From the IMG/VR virus record IMGVR_UViG_3300022744_000009, positions 1 to 43,816 of that record: 43,816 nucleotides of DNA. The stretch is one strand, 5' to 3'. Of the stretch, positions 1,122-22,576 are shown piece after piece; position 1 is the stretch's first letter; the number at the start of each line of letters is the position of its first letter. The notes under the pieces were generated by a model. The model worked only from the letters and a program-made list of their open reading frames with translations. It ran no database searches and was not told the origin of the DNA. The stretch is from a virus. Made by a program: the position numbers and the translations under genes.

Positions 1122-1676
1122 ATGACATTTGCATCCCCCACGTCCACTGAAGAGCGTGCACTTGCGCTCCTCGGCCAAGGTCTAGGTCCTGAGGTTGTTG
1201 CATCTGCCGTTGGCGTAACTGTCTCTCGCATTTCGCAACTCCTGTCCGCTCCGGAATTCTCTGCACAAGTTGCTGATCTGCGCTACAAGAATCTATCCAA
1301 GCACAATGAGCGCGATAATGCTTATGATCGCATGGAGGATACGCTCCTGGAAAAGCTTACTGATCTCCTCCCCTTCATGGTGCGGCCAATGGAAGTTCTG
1401 AAGGCAATTCAGATCATCAATGCCGCCAAACGTCGTGGCTCTTCCGCCCCGGAAAGCATCACCAATCAGCAAACTGTTGTGCAACTTGTCATGCCTACGC
1501 AAATTATCAATCGCTACACGCTAAATGCGAATAATCAAGTCATTACCGCTGGACAACAGGATCTTGTAACTGTACAATCAGCCTCATTACCCGCACTTCT
1601 TGCATCACGAAAGGCAGCAATCAGCCATGAACGCCCCAATGACCCCTCAAATGCGCGCGCAAATGCAGCAGCTTGA
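1122..1676 (+). CDS. Putative terminase small subunit
   Basis: 184 residues, starting 5 bases after the previous stop at an AATCATCATG start. The N-terminal ~45 residues look like a helix-turn-helix: EERALALLGQGLGPEVVASA then VGVTVSRISQLL, the pattern of small terminase DNA-binding domains that recognise packaging sites. A helical middle (residues 60-105) and a polar, Ala/Asn-rich tail follow. The position two genes upstream of the large terminase supports the call. The family assignment rests on the helix-turn-helix and on gene order. No sequence signature specific to one TerS family was recognised. Confidence 0.7.
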   Translation: MTFASPTSTEERALALLGQGLGPEVVASAVGVTVSRISQLLSAPEFSAQVADLRYKNLSKHNERDNAYDRMEDTLLEKLTDLLPFMVRPMEVLKAIQIINAAKRRGSSAPESITNQQTVVQLVMPTQIINRYTLNANNQVITAGQQDLVTVQSASLPALLASRKAAISHERPNDPSNARANAAA

Positions 1677-1773
1677 GCAAAAGCAGCGCCTCCTGGAACA
1701 AAATAAGCAGGCGGCCCTTGTGCAACTGCGCATCATTCAATCTATGCTGGCCCAGAAGCCTGTTGCGCGATGA
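1627..1773 (+). CDS. 48-residue coiled-coil protein between the terminase genes
   Basis: The ORF encodes MNAPMTPQMRAQMQQLEQ followed by Lys/Gln/Leu-rich sequence, almost entirely heptad-like helix. It starts inside the 3' end of the small-terminase gene (50-base overlap). Its TGA overlaps the large-terminase ATG as ATGA (1770-1773). This double coupling suggests co-translation with packaging proteins. It might be an accessory terminase or a head-joining coil. There is no recognisable family. The tight overlap and non-random Gln-rich helix argue it is real, although the ribosome site is weak. Confidence 0.6.
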   Translation: MNAPMTPQMRAQMQQLEQKQRLLEQNKQAALVQLRIIQSMLAQKPVAR

Positions 1774-3329
1774 AATTCTCTGCAACATCCCTTGGATTTT
1801 CCGACGTCGCCACGGTTCCCCCGCCTGCACCACTTCCAGAGGAGCCGCAATATCAGGAAAATGCATTCAATACGCAGGAAGTGATCGACAATGCACGAGA
1901 TTCCCTAGATTTCCTCGCTGCACTCGCACTTCCTGCCGTATTCAAGTACTTCTTTCCTCCTGTCTTCCAAGCAATCTGGGCTTGGATGCTGTCGTTCGTC
2001 CATAAAACTCGTGATTTTTCCCAACTCGCTATCGGTCTTCCGCGCGGTTTCGGAAAGACCATGCTCATCAAGATTTTCATTCTCTATGTAATCCTCTTCA
2101 CGCGCAAACAGTTCATTCTAATCATCTGCGGTACGCAAACTAAGGCAAACAACATCATTGCAGATATCATTGGAATACTGAATGAAAGCAACGTAAAGAA
2201 AGTATTCGGAGATTGGAAACTTGGCGCCGAGACAGATAGGCAGGATCTCAAGAAATTCGGATTCCGGGGCCGCAACATCATCTTGATGGGAGCTGGTGCG
2301 CAATCAGATATTCGTGGCATCACACTGGAGAATGTGCGGCCCGACATCATGATTTTTGATGACATCCAAACTCGTGAGGATGCCGATAGCGACGTTATCT
2401 CATCCAATCTCGAAACATGGATGGTCGGCACGGCAATGAAAGCAAAGAGCCCTGAAGGGTGTCTTTTCATCTTCATTGCTAACATGTATCCCACCAAGCA
2501 CTCTCTCCTCCGGAAACTCAAGCACAATCCTACCTGGACTAAATTTATTGCAGGTGGCATCCTCGCTGATGGCACATCTCTCTGGGAAGATTTGCAGCCA
2601 ATCTCCCAGCTCCTGCGTGAATATGAAAACGACCTGGCAATGGGAAAGCCAGAAGTTTTCCATGCGGAAGTCCTGAATGATGAGAATGCCTCCATCAATA
2701 ATCACATTGATATTGGCAAGATTCCTGCATTTCCCTATGAAGGCGAAACTACCCACCAGGGTTCCTTCATCCTCATTGACCCCTCAAATGATAAGGCCAA
2801 TAGTGATGCAGTATCCATTGGATATTACGAAATCTTTGAGGGTAAGCCTGCCTGCCAGGAAATTATTGAAGGTCGTCTATCCCCAGGAGATACAATCCGG
2901 GAAACCCTTAAACTGGCATTGCGTCGCAATTGCCGAGTAATCTGCGTGGAATCGAATGCATACCAGTACTCTTTGCTCTACTGGTTTAATTTCATTATCA
3001 ATCAGTTCGGCCTAACTAATGCTGGTTTCCATTGCCTGGATCTGTACAGTGGCCAGCGATCCAAGAATGCTCGCATTCTGGATATGTTCAAATCCCTCCT
3101 GAAGGGCGAAATCTGGCTATCTAATGCGGCGCGCCCAGCAACCTTCTCGCAGATTACATCCTTCAACCCACTAAAAACAAACAATGTGGATGGCGTCCTG
3201 GATCTTCATACATACGCAAACAAGGCAATTGAACTGTATGGAGATTTCATTGCATCCTCACTAATCCTGGAAGCTCAGGAATTTGACGGCATTCCCGTCC
3301 TCTCCGCAGCCGAAAACTGCGCATTCTAA
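1770..3329 (+). CDS. terL: Terminase large subunit (packaging ATPase/nuclease)
   Basis: 519 residues, the motor that threads DNA into the prohead and cuts it. The N-terminal ATPase has a Walker A-like GLPRGFGKT at about 89-97 and a Walker B IMIFDD at about 193-198. The C-terminal RNase H-like nuclease begins with FILIDPSND at about 333-341, whose Asp is the expected first metal ligand. Further acidic residues follow (ICVESNAYQ, and VDGVLDLHTYA near the end). The GFGKT Walker variant and the layout resemble T7 gp19-type and related podovirus terminases. It starts on the ATGA overlap with the 48-residue gene. Length is normal for the family. Confidence 0.93.
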   Translation: MKFSATSLGFSDVATVPPPAPLPEEPQYQENAFNTQEVIDNARDSLDFLAALALPAVFKYFFPPVFQAIWAWMLSFVHKTRDFSQLAIGLPRGFGKTMLIKIFILYVILFTRKQFILIICGTQTKANNIIADIIGILNESNVKKVFGDWKLGAETDRQDLKKFGFRGRNIILMGAGAQSDIRGITLENVRPDIMIFDDIQTREDADSDVISSNLETWMVGTAMKAKSPEGCLFIFIANMYPTKHSLLRKLKHNPTWTKFIAGGILADGTSLWEDLQPISQLLREYENDLAMGKPEVFHAEVLNDENASINNHIDIGKIPAFPYEGETTHQGSFILIDPSNDKANSDAVSIGYYEIFEGKPACQEIIEGRLSPGDTIRETLKLALRRNCRVICVESNAYQYSLLYWFNFIINQFGLTNAGFHCLDLYSGQRSKNARILDMFKSLLKGEIWLSNAARPATFSQITSFNPLKTNNVDGVLDLHTYANKAIELYGDFIASSLILEAQEFDGIPVLSAAENCAF

Positions 3330-5585: not shown

Positions 5586-5859
5586 TCCGTTCATTAGTTA
5601 CTCCCTGACCCCTAAGGAGATCATCCAAGGATCACAGCTATCCCTACTCCAAAAGCAATGCATCCAGAATATGATTGCATCCTACGCTGCTGAACGCCTC
5701 TCGCGGGAAATATCTGTATCCGCCCCACTAGAGACAGTTCAAGCAGATGCTAAGAACCAAGGACAGATTGAAGCCTTGCGCCATCTTCTTGATCTTAGTG
5801 ATGCTGCGGATGAAGCCATCCGTAATCCCTCAACCGCCCCTCAGGAAGGCCTCTCGTGA
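5563..5859 (+). CDS. Conserved-type small head-cluster protein
   Basis: 98 residues from ATG 5563 (MSQVNLNNPFISYSLTPKE). The frame is open upstream only through a weaker TTG. Predicted largely helical: LSLLQKQCIQNMIASYAAER, then a helix containing NQGQIEALRHLLDL. It overlaps both neighbours, by 23 bases upstream and by GTGA downstream. A helical protein of this size between portal and scaffold is common in podovirus-like genomes and may aid prohead assembly. No specific family recognised. Confidence 0.7.
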   Translation: MSQVNLNNPFISYSLTPKEIIQGSQLSLLQKQCIQNMIASYAAERLSREISVSAPLETVQADAKNQGQIEALRHLLDLSDAADEAIRNPSTAPQEGLS

Positions 5860-7118: not shown

Positions 7119-8345
7119 ATGAGCACTGGACTGCTTAGTACCACCACTCTCGGCGCAACCACTGACTACGTTGCAAAGAGTTTTGCGGGTATGATTACTC
7201 GCCTGATGCCGAATGGCCAGGCGCCCCTGTTTGGCATGACGGCAATGCTGGCGACGGAAACTGCTCTGCAGGTTGAGCATGGCTTCTTCACGAAGACCAT
7301 GGTCTTTCCGAACATGAATCTGGATGCTGCTGTTGCTGCCGCTGCGGATACTGTCTTCACGGTTGCCACCACTAACAACCTGATTCCTGGCATGCTGATG
7401 CGTGCTCAGAGCACTGGCGAGATCGTTCTGATTAATCAGATTCTGAGCGGCACCAGCGTCAGCGTGACTCGTGGCGTTGGCACTGTGGCCGCTGGTGCGA
7501 TTGCTGATAACGTTAACTTCTACCAAGTTGGTAACGCATTCGAAGAATCCAGCATTCGCCCGAACGCTCTGCAGATCAATCCTGTTCGCATCACTAACTA
7601 CACGCAGATTTTCCGCAACACCTGGGCTCTTTCGGGCTCGGCTCAAGCTACGCAAGTGATTGCCGGCGAGAGCACTGTTGCTGAGTCGCGTCAGGAATGT
7701 GCTGCGTTCCATGCTGCGGACATCGAGAAGGCGCTGTTCTGGGGTCAGAAATCCACCGGTACCCGGAATGGCCAACCGTTCCGCACCATGGATGGCCTGA
7801 TTCGCGTTGTTAGCGATCTGACGTACTACCCGTCTAGCTACGCTGCTGCGAACATCACCACTGCTGGTTCGACCACGAACTACACGCAGCTGGAAAATGC
7901 CCTGGATCCGGTCTTCAATCAGGTGACTGATCCGAAGGCTGGCAATCAGCGGATTCTGTTTGTCGGTTCGCAAGCTCGCAAGGTGATCAATAACATTGGT
8001 CGCCTGAACAGCACGTACTACATGCAGAATGGCGCCACCAGCTACGGCCTGCAGTTCGCTTCGTTCAACATCGCTCGTGGTTCGTTCAATATGATCGAGC
8101 ACCCGCTGTTCAATAGCAACAGTGATTGGGCGAAGCTGGCTGTCGCTGTGGATCTTTCCAGCTTCCGTGTTGCCTATCTGGGCGGCCGCAAGACGAAGAA
8201 AGAGGAATTCAATCTGGCTGGTCAGCCGGTTGATAACGGCATCGACGCTGTTGGCGGCACCCTGACTACGGAAATGACTTGCGTGGTGAAGAACCCGCCG
8301 GCCAATGCCGTGATCTATGATCTGACCGCTGCCGCTGCTGGCTGA
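7119..8345 (+). CDS. Major capsid protein (SU10-like)
   Basis: 408 residues, the expected HK97-fold shell protein. The N-terminal arm TTDYVAKSFAGMITRLMPNG then APLFGMTAML, with ETALQVEHGFFTKTMVFPN, matches the pattern I associate with the SU10 major capsid family (DUF5309). Later blocks such as RILFVGSQARKVINNIGRL and VAVDLSSFRVAYLGGRKTKK also fit. A strong AAGGA site precedes the ATG. The base composition is more GC-rich and codon-regular than its neighbours, as expected for the most expressed virion gene. No N-terminal protease-cleaved delta domain is evident, consistent with a separate scaffold gene. Confidence 0.88.
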   Translation: MSTGLLSTTTLGATTDYVAKSFAGMITRLMPNGQAPLFGMTAMLATETALQVEHGFFTKTMVFPNMNLDAAVAAAADTVFTVATTNNLIPGMLMRAQSTGEIVLINQILSGTSVSVTRGVGTVAAGAIADNVNFYQVGNAFEESSIRPNALQINPVRITNYTQIFRNTWALSGSAQATQVIAGESTVAESRQECAAFHAADIEKALFWGQKSTGTRNGQPFRTMDGLIRVVSDLTYYPSSYAAANITTAGSTTNYTQLENALDPVFNQVTDPKAGNQRILFVGSQARKVINNIGRLNSTYYMQNGATSYGLQFASFNIARGSFNMIEHPLFNSNSDWAKLAVAVDLSSFRVAYLGGRKTKKEEFNLAGQPVDNGIDAVGGTLTTEMTCVVKNPPANAVIYDLTAAAAG

Positions 8346-9630: not shown

Positions 9631-11274
9631 ATGGCATCCATCTGGAATCCTTCTACGTTTGTGCCCATCGATTCGGAAGTAATTAGTATTTTTGATTACC
9701 TTACGGCGGCACAGATTGCAGATGTAAAGGCAGGTACTGCACTTTTGGAGGTAACTGACGCAATTCGTACCGCCATCAGCACTGCGTATGCGTTTTCGCA
9801 GGGCAGTATTACGGTTCCATATGACACAATTCGCTTGGGCGGGTACACGATTGTGTTTCCTGCTGGTACGTATCTAGTTACGGGTACGATCGAATTGAAC
9901 GAAGGCATCACGTTGCAAGGTGCTGGACGGTTCTCTACCATCATCAAATCTTCGTATGATGGCACCATTATTCGTAACGCTACTCCCGCCTCGTATGATG
10001 CCTTTGGAATGGGCATTAAATTCATGACGATTTGGGGGGATCGTACGAAAACTAATCAGATCGGCATTGCGCTGTTGCGAGATTGGTTTGGTACGTATCA
10101 AGATGTTGTGGTTGCAGAAACCGGTTCACACGGCTGGCGCCTTTATCAGTGCATTAACACTCAACTAAAGAACTGTGAAGTTCTAGAGGCTGTTGGGCGC
10201 GGACTATACATTAGTGACGGCATTGCTTCCTGGGCATCCCCCACTAACACCAATCTGCCGACAAACAATCTGGATATCTACGGCTTTCATGCCTACGGTT
10301 GTGATGGCGCAGGTATCTACCTTGGCCGCTCTGGCACTGGTATTGGTGTGATGGGCGTTAAGTTCTTTGGAGGATCTTCGGAATACAATTATCGTTCGTC
10401 ATCCGCAGGTGTTGGATACAACATTGAAGTGGTGAATACGAACAATGCTGTTCCGAACTACTTCATCAACATGTGGTGCGAGGATACAAACTCTCTTGCA
10501 CATGTGTACTACAACGCAACAAATGACCAGGATCCTCTGGTGTTTCAGAACTTTGTGCACTTTGCGCATGGCTCTGGAAACTACCCTCAGAAGGCGGCTA
10601 TCGTAAATAAGGGCCGGTTGATTATTGAGGGCGCCACAGGTAGCGGAGAGTTGTATCGTACCTATCTTGGATCCAATGCACCCTTCCAGCTCACTAAGGC
10701 TACTGGCACCATCTATGCAAATAATGTGACTGGCGCTGGGTTGGCTGTTGGCGTTGCACAAATCGTAGATGAGACTGGCGCATCCACCGGGCTGGAAGAT
10801 AATGTTCGTGTCAATACGCATGGACAGCATTGGGGCCCCGTAGTCTTTAATACGGACAGCGGTAAATCTGGCCCTAGCTTCTACCAAGCGGGACAATCTT
10901 TTGCGTATGCGGACTTCAGCAACACGTCAAAAGCTATTCGCATGGGCACAGGGCTGTCAGCTCCTGTAGTTGCACTAATCAACAATTTCATTGGTGTAAG
11001 TGCAAACCGCGGAGATGCAAACGTAACGCTTACTGTGGGAGTAAACGAGGAGATTCAACTGTTTGCAACTGCACTAACTGCCAATCGCACCGTCACGCTA
11101 TCTACGAGTGGCGGCGTAGCCAAAGGGCACAAGTTTAGAATTGTTCGCACTGGTCTTGGCGCATTCACTTTGGATGTTGGTGGCCTCAAGACAATTCCAA
11201 GCGCGACTGCTGCATTTGTTGATGTAGCACATAATGGCACTTCCTGGCAGTACGTTGGTTATGGATTGCTGTAA
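9631..11274 (+). CDS. Tailspike with pectate-lyase-like beta-helix
   Basis: 547 residues. The N-terminal ~60 residues form a particle-binding anchor (SVISIFDYL-like pattern, 'LTAAQIADVKAGTALLEVT'). The pectate-lyase-type beta-helix opening then follows: IVFPAGTYLVTGTIELNEGI and TLQGAGRFSTIIKSS, at about 75-112. Repeated strands with Asn/Gly turns continue to about residue 430. A beta-sandwich C-terminus resembles the decoration-like protein at 6665. It is likely to bind or cut host surface polysaccharide. Catalytic residues cannot be placed by eye. The gene starts two bases after the adaptor stop at an AATCATG motif. Confidence 0.82.
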   Translation: MASIWNPSTFVPIDSEVISIFDYLTAAQIADVKAGTALLEVTDAIRTAISTAYAFSQGSITVPYDTIRLGGYTIVFPAGTYLVTGTIELNEGITLQGAGRFSTIIKSSYDGTIIRNATPASYDAFGMGIKFMTIWGDRTKTNQIGIALLRDWFGTYQDVVVAETGSHGWRLYQCINTQLKNCEVLEAVGRGLYISDGIASWASPTNTNLPTNNLDIYGFHAYGCDGAGIYLGRSGTGIGVMGVKFFGGSSEYNYRSSSAGVGYNIEVVNTNNAVPNYFINMWCEDTNSLAHVYYNATNDQDPLVFQNFVHFAHGSGNYPQKAAIVNKGRLIIEGATGSGELYRTYLGSNAPFQLTKATGTIYANNVTGAGLAVGVAQIVDETGASTGLEDNVRVNTHGQHWGPVVFNTDSGKSGPSFYQAGQSFAYADFSNTSKAIRMGTGLSAPVVALINNFIGVSANRGDANVTLTVGVNEEIQLFATALTANRTVTLSTSGGVAKGHKFRIVRTGLGAFTLDVGGLKTIPSATAAFVDVAHNGTSWQYVGYGLL

Positions 11275-20778: not shown

Positions 20779-21018
20779 ATGTATTTTCCCGGCTACAAAG
20801 GTGGCGAGGCCATCACTCCTAGCGACGTCACGAACTTCACGCGAGGCGTGTGCAATGGCATCTACGTTGGAGGCACTGGTGCAATTGCGATGGTGATGAT
20901 GGATGATACAGTGGTTACGCTTGCAGCGGTGCCTGCTGGTATCATCCTTCCGTTCCTTGCAAAGCGAGTGAATGCAACTGGTACGGCTGCAACGAATCTT
21001 GTTGCACTGTATGCGTAA
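20779..21018 (+). CDS. Head-spike base-like protein (RCAP_rcc01079 type)
   Basis: 79 residues. The sequence follows a recognisable pattern: ITPSDVTNFTRGVCNGIYVG, then GTGAIAMVMMDDTVVTLAAV, PAGIILPFLAKRVNATGTAA and a terminal VALYA. This is the pattern of the spike-base family named for Rhodobacter capsulatus gene transfer agent protein Rcc01079, with 'TPSD', 'YVGG-G', 'V-PAG--LP' and 'V-ATGT-AT-LVALY'. In the gene transfer agent this protein anchors spikes on the head. It has a strong AAAGGAAA site and is followed by a probable spike protein, as in that system. The assignment is from memory of the pattern and is not alignment-tested. Confidence 0.72.
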   Translation: MYFPGYKGGEAITPSDVTNFTRGVCNGIYVGGTGAIAMVMMDDTVVTLAAVPAGIILPFLAKRVNATGTAATNLVALYA

Positions 21019-21038
21019 GCGTTACGAGGAGCATAGAC

Positions 21039-22457
21039 ATGGCTGATAACTTTCGGCATGCACAATACAACACTGTGGGTGTGCAGATTGATGATCCACA
21101 GAGAATTAAGGATCTAACTGAAAGTCAGGTAGTGGCAGTTCAAGCCCTGGTGTCAGATGCTGGGATTCTTGGCACCACGTTCTGCGACTGGTCTACTGGC
21201 GGCAGCATTGCCGTGTCGGGGTCTACCGGCGCGACGGCCGTGCTGGACAACAGCGTGTCCATTGCCGGTCGGCCGTCGCTGCGGATCACGATGGGAGCCA
21301 CCGGCACGTTGCAGGTGACTTTCACCTTCACGACGCCTGCCACGCTGGCCCAGCTCAAGACGCTGCAGATCCCGGTGCGCTTCTCGCGTAACGGCACCGA
21401 CAATGGCGCCACGCAGGTGATGGCGGCGCCGACCCTATGGCTGGTTGGCAGCAGCGGGTCGCAATGGCGCTACGCCCTGGCCACCACGGGATGGCGCGAC
21501 AGCGCGTGGCGCGTGTGGTCTGTCGCCCCGGGTGGAACAACGCAGGGCTGGTCTTTCGGGGGCTCGCCCTTGCCGACAGACAGCAGCAGCATGGATGCCG
21601 ACACCATCGTGTCAGCGCGACTGGTCTACGCGGTCAACGCCATCGACGCGGGCGAAACGCTGTGGCTCGGGCCGCTGACTGCTGGCGCTCGTCGCAAGGG
21701 GCGTGTGTCGGTGGTGATGGACGGCTGCTACACCAGCCAGGACACCAACATCTTGCCGATGATGCGGGCCCAGGGCCTGCGGGCATCACTGGCGGTGGTC
21801 AACAGCCTGGTCGGGCAGTCGGGGTCGTTCGGCTGGTCCACGCTGGCGCGTCACTACAGCGACGGCCACAACGTACTGCATCACACCTACGACGCCACCG
21901 GCGGCAAGACGAACGGCTATGTCAATGCAACGGATTGGCCCACAGCCGCCAGCATCACTGCCGACGTAGCTGCTGGCTTCGCCGACCTGACGACGCGCGG
22001 TTTCACCCGTGGTGTCGGCTATGGCGTGTGGGGCTATGCGCTGCCTTGGGCATTTGCTACCGGCAAGACCCGGCAGGACTTGGTGGTCAACGCGCTGAAG
22101 GCGGGAGGCTTGCGCGCCATGCGCAATGGGTCGGTGAGCGGCGGCCCGTACACGCGCCTGCAATCCATCGCGCATGCCGACTACGTAGATCCGCTGTCCG
22201 TGCAGGGCGCAATCCAGATCAGCAGCGGCAACAGCGCCCAGGATGTAAAGGACGTGATCGACCGCGCTCGGGATCGCGGAGAGTGGGGCGTCATCACCGT
22301 GCACAGATCAGTCGTGAGCACGCCAGGATCGCTTGAGATGACCAACGCCAACTTCGACGACTGGATCAGCTATCTCGGCGCGCAAGTCCGCCTGGGTGGT
22401 GTGGATTGCACGCCGTTCGATGAGGTGTGCAGCTCGCTCGGCGTGTCGGCGATCTGA
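21039..22457 (+). CDS. Spike protein with NodB-like polysaccharide deacetylase domain
   Basis: 472 residues, GAGGAG site. Residues 1 to about 50 have phage-like composition and form a probable anchor. From about codon 50 the DNA becomes strongly GC-rich. Residues 55-215 look like a beta-sandwich. Residues 220-472 resemble a NodB/CE4 deacetylase: a KGRVSVVMDGCY strand at about 220-231 in the position of the family 'TFDDGY', then DGHNVLHHTYD at about 275-285, and late WGVITVHRSV. The first Asp of the usual DD pair is replaced by Met, and the second His of the HxxxH motif is not obvious. It may be inactive and used for glycan binding. As last gene of the late arm it is probably the host-range determinant. 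Confidence 0.75.
   Translation: MADNFRHAQYNTVGVQIDDPQRIKDLTESQVVAVQALVSDAGILGTTFCDWSTGGSIAVSGSTGATAVLDNSVSIAGRPSLRITMGATGTLQVTFTFTTPATLAQLKTLQIPVRFSRNGTDNGATQVMAAPTLWLVGSSGSQWRYALATTGWRDSAWRVWSVAPGGTTQGWSFGGSPLPTDSSSMDADTIVSARLVYAVNAIDAGETLWLGPLTAGARRKGRVSVVMDGCYTSQDTNILPMMRAQGLRASLAVVNSLVGQSGSFGWSTLARHYSDGHNVLHHTYDATGGKTNGYVNATDWPTAASITADVAAGFADLTTRGFTRGVGYGVWGYALPWAFATGKTRQDLVVNALKAGGLRAMRNGSVSGGPYTRLQSIAHADYVDPLSVQGAIQISSGNSAQDVKDVIDRARDRGEWGVITVHRSVVSTPGSLEMTNANFDDWISYLGAQVRLGGVDCTPFDEVCSSLGVSAI
21195..22457 (+). other. GC-rich horizontally acquired segment
   Basis: Composition changes inside one reading frame. Line 21481-21540 has 43 G+C of 60, whereas 16981-17040 has 31 of 60 and 36121-36180 has 26 of 60. 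Third codon positions become mostly G or C. The left edge falls between about 21165 and 21225; the right edge coincides with the stop codon. This looks like replacement of the receptor-binding part by sequence from a high-GC host or phage. Confidence 0.88.
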
Positions 22458-22516
22458 TCCATCCCCTGCCGGTAATGCTTAGCCTATGATGTAATAATTA
22501 CGCGTAGCCAAACGCA

Positions 22517-22554
22517 AAAACCCCTAGGTAGCAATTAAGCCGCCTAGGGGTTTT
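22517..22554. terminator. Bidirectional intrinsic terminator between converging arms
   Basis: AAAACCCCTAGG (22517-22528) pairs with CCTAGGGGTTTT (22543-22554): a perfect 12-bp stem with a 14-base loop. T-rich sequence follows on both strands. It lies between the last rightward gene and the last leftward gene, so it can stop both convergent transcripts. Confidence 0.95.
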
Positions 22555-22576
22555 GTTTTGTCTGCTTGTTTTCAAG

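Follow-up and report, generated by a model that had tools for sequence, protein, structure and literature searches.

It is an old question how unrelated phages can exchange host-contact domains and keep their genes whole, and the junctions that such exchanges leave rarely show conserved boundary sequences. That short boundary sequences serve as sites of homologous recombination is a long-standing proposal, yet most mosaic junctions have none (PMC3029335). The question arises again in a 43,816-base stretch of DNA, a single metagenomic virus record analysed as a whole and called the window here, in which one late gene changes its composition abruptly partway through the reading frame. In our judgement this gene likely encodes a two-part virion-surface protein, whose imported cargo comes from an exchangeable pool of cassettes bounded by short DNA boxes, with exchange taking place at those boxes.

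A composition jump inside one gene

Two features define the jump:

21039–22457, + strand: spike (fibre) protein gene, 472 aa, native anchor plus imported cargo (single open frame, translation)
21171–22472, + strand: imported high-GC cargo segment (maximum-likelihood GC segment; codon test z = 15.5)

Maximum-likelihood segmentation of the 43,816-nt window assigns the segment at 21171–22472 a GC content of 0.66, against 0.49 outside it, with edge ranges of 21123–21217 on the left and 22442–22485 on the right. Counted in 60-nt lines, the segment averages 39.6 G or C letters and the remainder 29.4 (5–95% range 24–35, maximum 40), while GC stays at or below 0.552 in every other 1278-nt stretch of the window. 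Third-position GC (GC3) rises from 0.35 in codons 1–44 to 0.82 in codons 45–472, for which the phage’s own codon usage predicts 0.48, the observed value being 15.5 standard deviations higher (z = +15.5). As this excess exceeds the expectation from the phage’s own codon usage, amino-acid choice is not its cause, and amino-acid-driven GC is ruled out for codons 45–472.

An earlier note, made from the letters of the sequence, had described a receptor-tip domain swapped in from a high-GC source, and the sliding GC and codon analysis that it proposed confirms the segment. Its count of 43/60 at 21481–21540 is exact and the jump is real, although GC reaches 66% rather than 70%. The junction does lie inside one gene, but nearer codon 36–45 than codon 52. 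The tract had also been said to end exactly with the gene beside the terminator; instead its right end is a conserved box about 15 nt beyond the stop, with the hairpin about 45 nt further on, at about 22519–22555:

22510–22560, + strand: terminator-like hairpin 3' of the cassette, on the phage’s own side of the junction (fold −28.5 kcal/mol, z = −5.9)

After the spike gene, the strongest deviation is that of the major capsid gene at 7119–8345 (GC3 0.64, second highest in the window; z = 6.4), where codon selection for high expression is perhaps responsible.

A native anchor behind a head-spike base gene

The window’s major capsid protein is about 37% identical to those of PaP2/119X-type podoviruses. 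Its late operon ends with a 1617-aa gene, whose product gave no relatives in an IMG/VR search, then a 79-aa gene and the gene at 21039–22457. The features relevant to attachment are:

20779–21018, + strand: head-spike base protein gene, 79 aa, directly upstream of the spike gene (PDB 8cjz, Rcc01079, phrog_12296)
21039–21140, + strand: native anchor, residues 1 to ~34 (MADNFRHAQYxxxGxQIDDP...), low GC3 (0.35), shared with L002

The 79-aa product matches chain h of PDB 8cjz, annotated ‘Spike Base Protein’ (E=4.5e-8), the head spike base Rcc01079 of RcGTA (E=4.5e-4) and phrog_12296, and its relatives occur in L002, Carin1, P8625, RcapNL, ZHS and immuto. Base and fibre genes are separated by 21 nt in the window and by 14 nt in L002, and they are likewise adjacent in the five named phages. 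The DNA from the 3' end of the base gene to the start of the spike gene (20954–21067) is 77% identical in L002. In Carin1, P8625, RcapNL, ZHS and immuto the gene behind the base gene begins with a Leu-Gly repeat, as in the RcGTA fibre; the anchors of the window and L002 differ from this type, and a search of the spike gene and the whole window for the GLGLG head-fibre anchor found none.

Different relatives on either side of the junction

Separate searches with the N-terminal and C-terminal parts, as the earlier note had suggested, returned different phages. L002 matches the window in its upstream genes (55% identity for the big protein, 58% for the 79-aa protein), and its spike protein matches only at residues 1–43 (53% identity); its C-terminus is a GDSL esterase (PF13472, E=5e-10), in a gene of low GC throughout. 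Three loci from other phage types, L092, L093 and L095, have in common with the window only the C-terminal part, a jelly-roll followed by a NodB-fold domain, and carry it on three other, unrelated N-termini. This cargo stands behind a tail gene in L092, just before a head-closure gene in L093, and between the major head gene and a head-tail adaptor-like gene in L095. The last of these is an independent low-GC phage, with its best high-GC segment at 1736–3075 and the corresponding gene at 1659–3059; its cargo is 37% identical to that of the window as protein, with no DNA match inside.

The window gene thus combines a compositional junction with a two-sided domain exchange, and the proposed in-frame C-terminal swap onto a conserved anchor holds up, with a high-GC phage pool as its source. 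None of the relatives found has the whole protein at uniform composition. GenBank phages and plasmids, searched directly with the gene as DNA and as protein, gave no matches, and two scans of 85k species genomes, in which exact peptide words were required, gave no relative; for this last reason the donor is named as a high-GC phage pool and not as a host. In L093, a 108-aa gene just 5' of the NodB cargo gene (351–677) looks by eye like the end of a deacetylase-type domain, with no Pfam match, and is possibly the remnant of an older cargo.

A pair of boxes at the cassette ends

The earlier note recognized the exchanged segment within one gene and missed the two DNA boxes that delimit it:

21141–21166, + strand: L box, CAAGCCCTGGTGTCAGATGCTGGGAT, 26 nt, in frame, encoding QALVSDAGI (L095 match; cassette consensus)
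22455–22475, + strand: R box, the stop codon plus TCCATCCCCTGCCGGTAA (exact 16-nt matches in IMG/VR)

At the left end, inside the reading frame, 28 of 32 nt are common to the window and L095, and at the right end 16 nt directly behind the stop are identical. This R-box 16-mer, CATCCCCTGCCGGTAA, occurs once in the window and exactly in 30 IMG/VR stretches. In about 25 of the 30 it lies 2–4 nt after a stop codon, in the common context T(A/G)A..TCCCATCCCCTGCCGGTAA; the others, five or six in number (L107, L109, L119, L123, L127 and probably L121), look like chance matches and lack cassette context. A left box, CTGGTGTCAGGGGNTGGGA, is found 1.3–2.2 kb upstream of the R box in nearly all cassettes with enough sequence, usually in the same frame. 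The approximate consensus is TTCAANCCCTGGTGTCAGGGGNTGGGAA for the L box (coding), derived from 14 cassettes, and TGATTCCCATCCCCTGCCGGTAA for the R box (just after the stop). The window’s L box has two mismatches to the 20-nt consensus, and such a match appeared in none of 100 shuffles.

One box pair is common to about nine unrelated backbones and about 20 distinct cassettes, with cargoes that include NodB domains, five GDSL esterases, a GH28-like domain and other tips; because cassettes were collected through the exact R box, the counts understate how many and how varied they are, and depend in part on that criterion. The short boundary DNA recurs on either side of modules that differ from genome to genome. 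In L098, L102 and L125 a second gene stands between the boxed gene and the right box. That of L098 (3301–4200) encodes 299 aa (...HFIYMDEAGT...) and lies between a GDSL cargo and the exact R box, with a degenerate R-box copy behind the GDSL stop, so that this cassette seems to have grown by one gene.

The boxes in cassette form were found in none of 50,697 GenBank phage records searched with 30-nt queries, and the system would for this reason have escaped notice in cultured phages. A literature search, largely outside subscription papers and preprints, found no description of the box pair, and to our knowledge none exists.

With the window being a single metagenomic virus record, one might suspect an assembly chimera in which two phages were joined at short shared boxes. 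However, the junction falls between domains and keeps the frame, and past the far end the sequence resumes with the phage’s terminator. L095 independently shows a low-GC anchor with a high-GC cargo, and one arrangement (L100=L113=L115=L122) recurs at 99.9–100% identity under different IMG numbers. The exact right-end run with L095, moreover, is only 16 nt long, shorter than usual assembly k-mers. We regard the probability of a chimera as close to negligible.

Crossovers at the boxes in other phages

Among phages other than a sister of the window phage, breakpoints of identity coincide with the boundary boxes in both directions. Where backbones are 90–96% identical, unrelated cargo occupies exactly the stretch from box to box: between L100 and L102, identity is 94% as far as 18 nt into the L box, disappears through the cargo, and is 96% again from 3 nt before the R box. 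The pairs L100–L116 and L102–L116 behave in the same way (90–95% on the left and 95–96% on the right across these pairs), and related backbones with different cargo are also seen in L098/L106 and L104/L105. The converse is found in L100 and L105, whose backbones are unrelated and which are 86% identical only over the interval that starts 5 nt before the L box and closes with the final base of the R box. L117, a relative of L100, has the first ~24 codons of the anchor gene followed by an R box (at 5774 of the reversed locus) and no cargo, an arrangement that would represent either a natural cargo-less state or a deletion.

The shared boxes could serve some purpose apart from recombination. They might be expression or folding elements that travel with the cargo, the L box encoding a required linker and the R box acting as a signal in translation or in the transcript for the next gene, with exchange occurring by illegitimate recombination and selection keeping only the junctions whose elements are intact. 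Consistent with this, the L box always encodes a (L)VSG-x-G linker, the R box always lies just behind the stop, and the next ATG follows within ~10–20 nt in several cassettes. Yet synonymous codon choice in the L box is constrained much more tightly than such a need would explain: its serine codon is TCA in 13/13 cases, against 9% usage, and its last glycine codon is GGG in 14/14, against 17% usage, so that the L-box codons are fixed beyond what the protein requires. Furthermore, unrelated backbones stop matching precisely at the boxes, on either side and in both directions. We consider a purely expression- or folding-related role distinctly improbable.

The L and R box consensus sequences (window 21146–21165 and 22455–22475) contain inverted copies of a 12-nt core, of which the window’s left copy is degenerate. 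The boxes might accordingly be read as terminal inverted repeats (core CAGGGGATGGGA / TCCCATCCCCTG) on which a site-specific recombinase or transposase acts in trans. The consensus boxes agree as inverted copies at 12/12 positions, a value reached by 1 in 20,000 shuffles, and the pair occurs in about nine unrelated backbones, as would suit a mobile element. Against this, no recombinase gene was seen inside the cassettes, the L-box cores vary (the longest exact inverted match is 6–7 nt in many cassettes, including that of the window), and the conserved letters reach past the inverted core (TTCAA.. and ..CCGGTAA), as they would in boxes of homology. Recombination in trans at terminal repeats is thus highly improbable in our estimate. 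A more elaborate proposal, which we hold to be rather improbable, takes the boxes as inverted-repeat ends of a mobile cassette type with its specific recombinase, an integron-like system that would move surface enzymes between morphotypes onto capsids.

Fold, activity and position on the virion

The cargo comprises two domains:

21174–21689, + strand: jelly-roll, carbohydrate-binding-module-like domain, residues 46–217 (AlphaFold2; Foldseek CBM4 and CBM11, E ~1e-6)
21690–22436, + strand: NodB-fold domain, residues 218–466 (PF01522, CE4 structures, alignment)

The AlphaFold2 model of the spike protein is of moderate confidence (pLDDT 65). Its NodB-fold domain matches PF01522 just below the cut-off (E=1.2e-4), and Foldseek relates it to the CE4 structures 7ax7 and 2cc0. 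The metal triad of CE4 enzymes consists of the second Asp of motif 1 and both His of motif 2 (PMC4505593). Alignment to chitin deacetylase and PgaB shows that D228 (the first Asp of motif 1, the catalytic base), H282 and H422 (the motif-5 His) are kept, while the Asp-His-His triad is incomplete, with H282 retained and two of the three ligands replaced by G229 and A286. Residues H281, H282, D285 and H422 are invariant among relatives, and H422 also occurs in the archaeal virus HFTV1. With two metal ligands missing, no canonical CE4 deacetylase activity is claimed; the NodB-fold part could be either an altered enzyme or a binder of the lectin type.

As to where the protein sits, the base-protein homologue directly upstream makes the capsid vertices the most likely position. 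Box cassettes elsewhere are found mostly in head clusters, and their neighbours there (major head, portal-type and connector genes) agree with a place on the capsid or the neck. In the PDB, the fold of the spike model is matched best by the HFTV1 capsid turret (E=1.7e-13), ahead of CBM4 and CBM11 modules and CE4 enzymes. Gene context and predicted fold together suggest that the protein is probably carried on the capsid rather than at the tail tip, and the same three observations speak against the earlier note’s ‘receptor tip’ where this is understood as a tail tip.

Ordinary exchange of tail-fibre or tail-spike tips, with the protein acting as a tail receptor-binding protein, would agree with the position of the gene at the end of the late operon and with the L092 cargo lying in a tail cluster; deacetylase tail fibres are, moreover, reported in other phages (PMC8471582, PMC9569702). 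We rank this possibility lower, as unlikely though credible, because the adjacent gene is a head-spike base homologue and cassettes elsewhere are mostly in head clusters. A separate gene of the window (9631–11274, 547 aa) encodes a pectate-lyase-type domain (PF12708, E=1.3e-9) and is probably the phage’s actual tailspike depolymerase.

Proposed exchange of cargo at the boxes

We propose that residues 1 to ~34 are the phage’s own anchor, encoded behind the head-spike base gene and most likely mounting the spike on capsid vertices, and that residues ~36–472 are imported cargo, the jelly-roll and NodB-fold domains, which would attach to the polysaccharide coat of the host as the phage adsorbs, and might also deacetylate it. 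The cargo would be one member of a cassette pool circulating among unrelated uncultured phages. Coinfecting phages would swap cargo at the boxes, most likely by annealing-type homologous recombination, which would preserve the reading frame on the left side and the spacing between genes on the right and leave the anchor and downstream genes intact. Relaxed homologous recombination is a property of phage Rad52-like recombinases (PMC3945230).

Several observations weigh against this reading. The window’s L box is degenerate in the repeat core, and L002, the nearest relative, has neither box, so that exchange at this anchor need not always use boxes. The reciprocal crossovers come from other phages and not from a sister of the window phage, the anchor is without the GLGLG repeat of known base-bound fibres, and the cargo relative L092 lies in a tail cluster.

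Relation to known systems

Module exchange at boundary sequences (PMC3029335) resembles the present case in having short conserved DNA at both module ends, for which homologous recombination was proposed. Here, in contrast, there is a defined and partly inverted box pair, one box in frame within a gene and the other right after its stop, and the cargo is always a C-terminal surface domain. In distantly related Alteromonas phages, host-recognition genes are distributed across morphotypes, much like the cargo sharing described here, but whole multigene tail modules are involved, attributed to ancient illegitimate or homologous events, and the available part of that report (PMC10579305) describes no conserved DNA boxes.

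In RcGTA, each fibre is gripped at its N-terminus by five base subunits on a capsid vertex and attaches to the capsule (PMC7296036). The head spikes Rcc01079/Rcc01080 thus share with the window a homologous base protein, and offer a precedent for N-terminal fibre attachment and capsule polysaccharide binding. The Leu-Gly repeat with which the RcGTA fibre fills five base pockets is absent here, the window anchor instead reading MADNFRHAQY... The NodB-fold domain agrees with CE4/NodB deacetylases (PF01522) in fold, catalytic-base Asp, first motif-2 His and motif-5 His, and differs in that the second Asp of motif 1 and the second His of motif 2 are replaced.

The closest structural parallel is the HFTV1 turret, made of base gp30 and gp31 (PDB 8QPG, PMC12494034). 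In gp31, which has its own small base protein, a stalk is followed by a sugar-binding-like domain (57–198) and a deacetylase-like domain (199–413) (PMC12494034); both loci thus have a small base gene, then a stalk, a sugar-binding-like domain and a C-terminal deacetylase-like domain. HFTV1 differs in being an archaeal virus whose base hexamer sits on hexameric capsomers, and its gp31 keeps the TIDD and HxxxH motifs. Sequence homology between the spike protein and gp31 was not detected by hhalign (probability 0.4%), and the likeness, going by the model, is one of architecture only.

A single pair of boxes brackets the cargo in about 20 distinct cassettes, and in both directions the breakpoints are resolved to a few bases. 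The old question of how host-contact domains are exchanged is now directly testable, and the boxes can be used to catalogue the cargo pool. Capsid-mounted carbohydrate-active proteins may, in addition, be a broad and exchangeable class in bacteriophages, with HFTV1 as a structural example. Genes behind head-spike base genes in IMG/VR encode, among 32 scanned, GDSL domains in five cases, arabinofuranosidase-like domains in three and lectin-like domains in two, all of them at loci without boxes (including L031, L036 and L043). Given these carbohydrate-related domains behind base genes, capsid-borne surface enzymes may be common.
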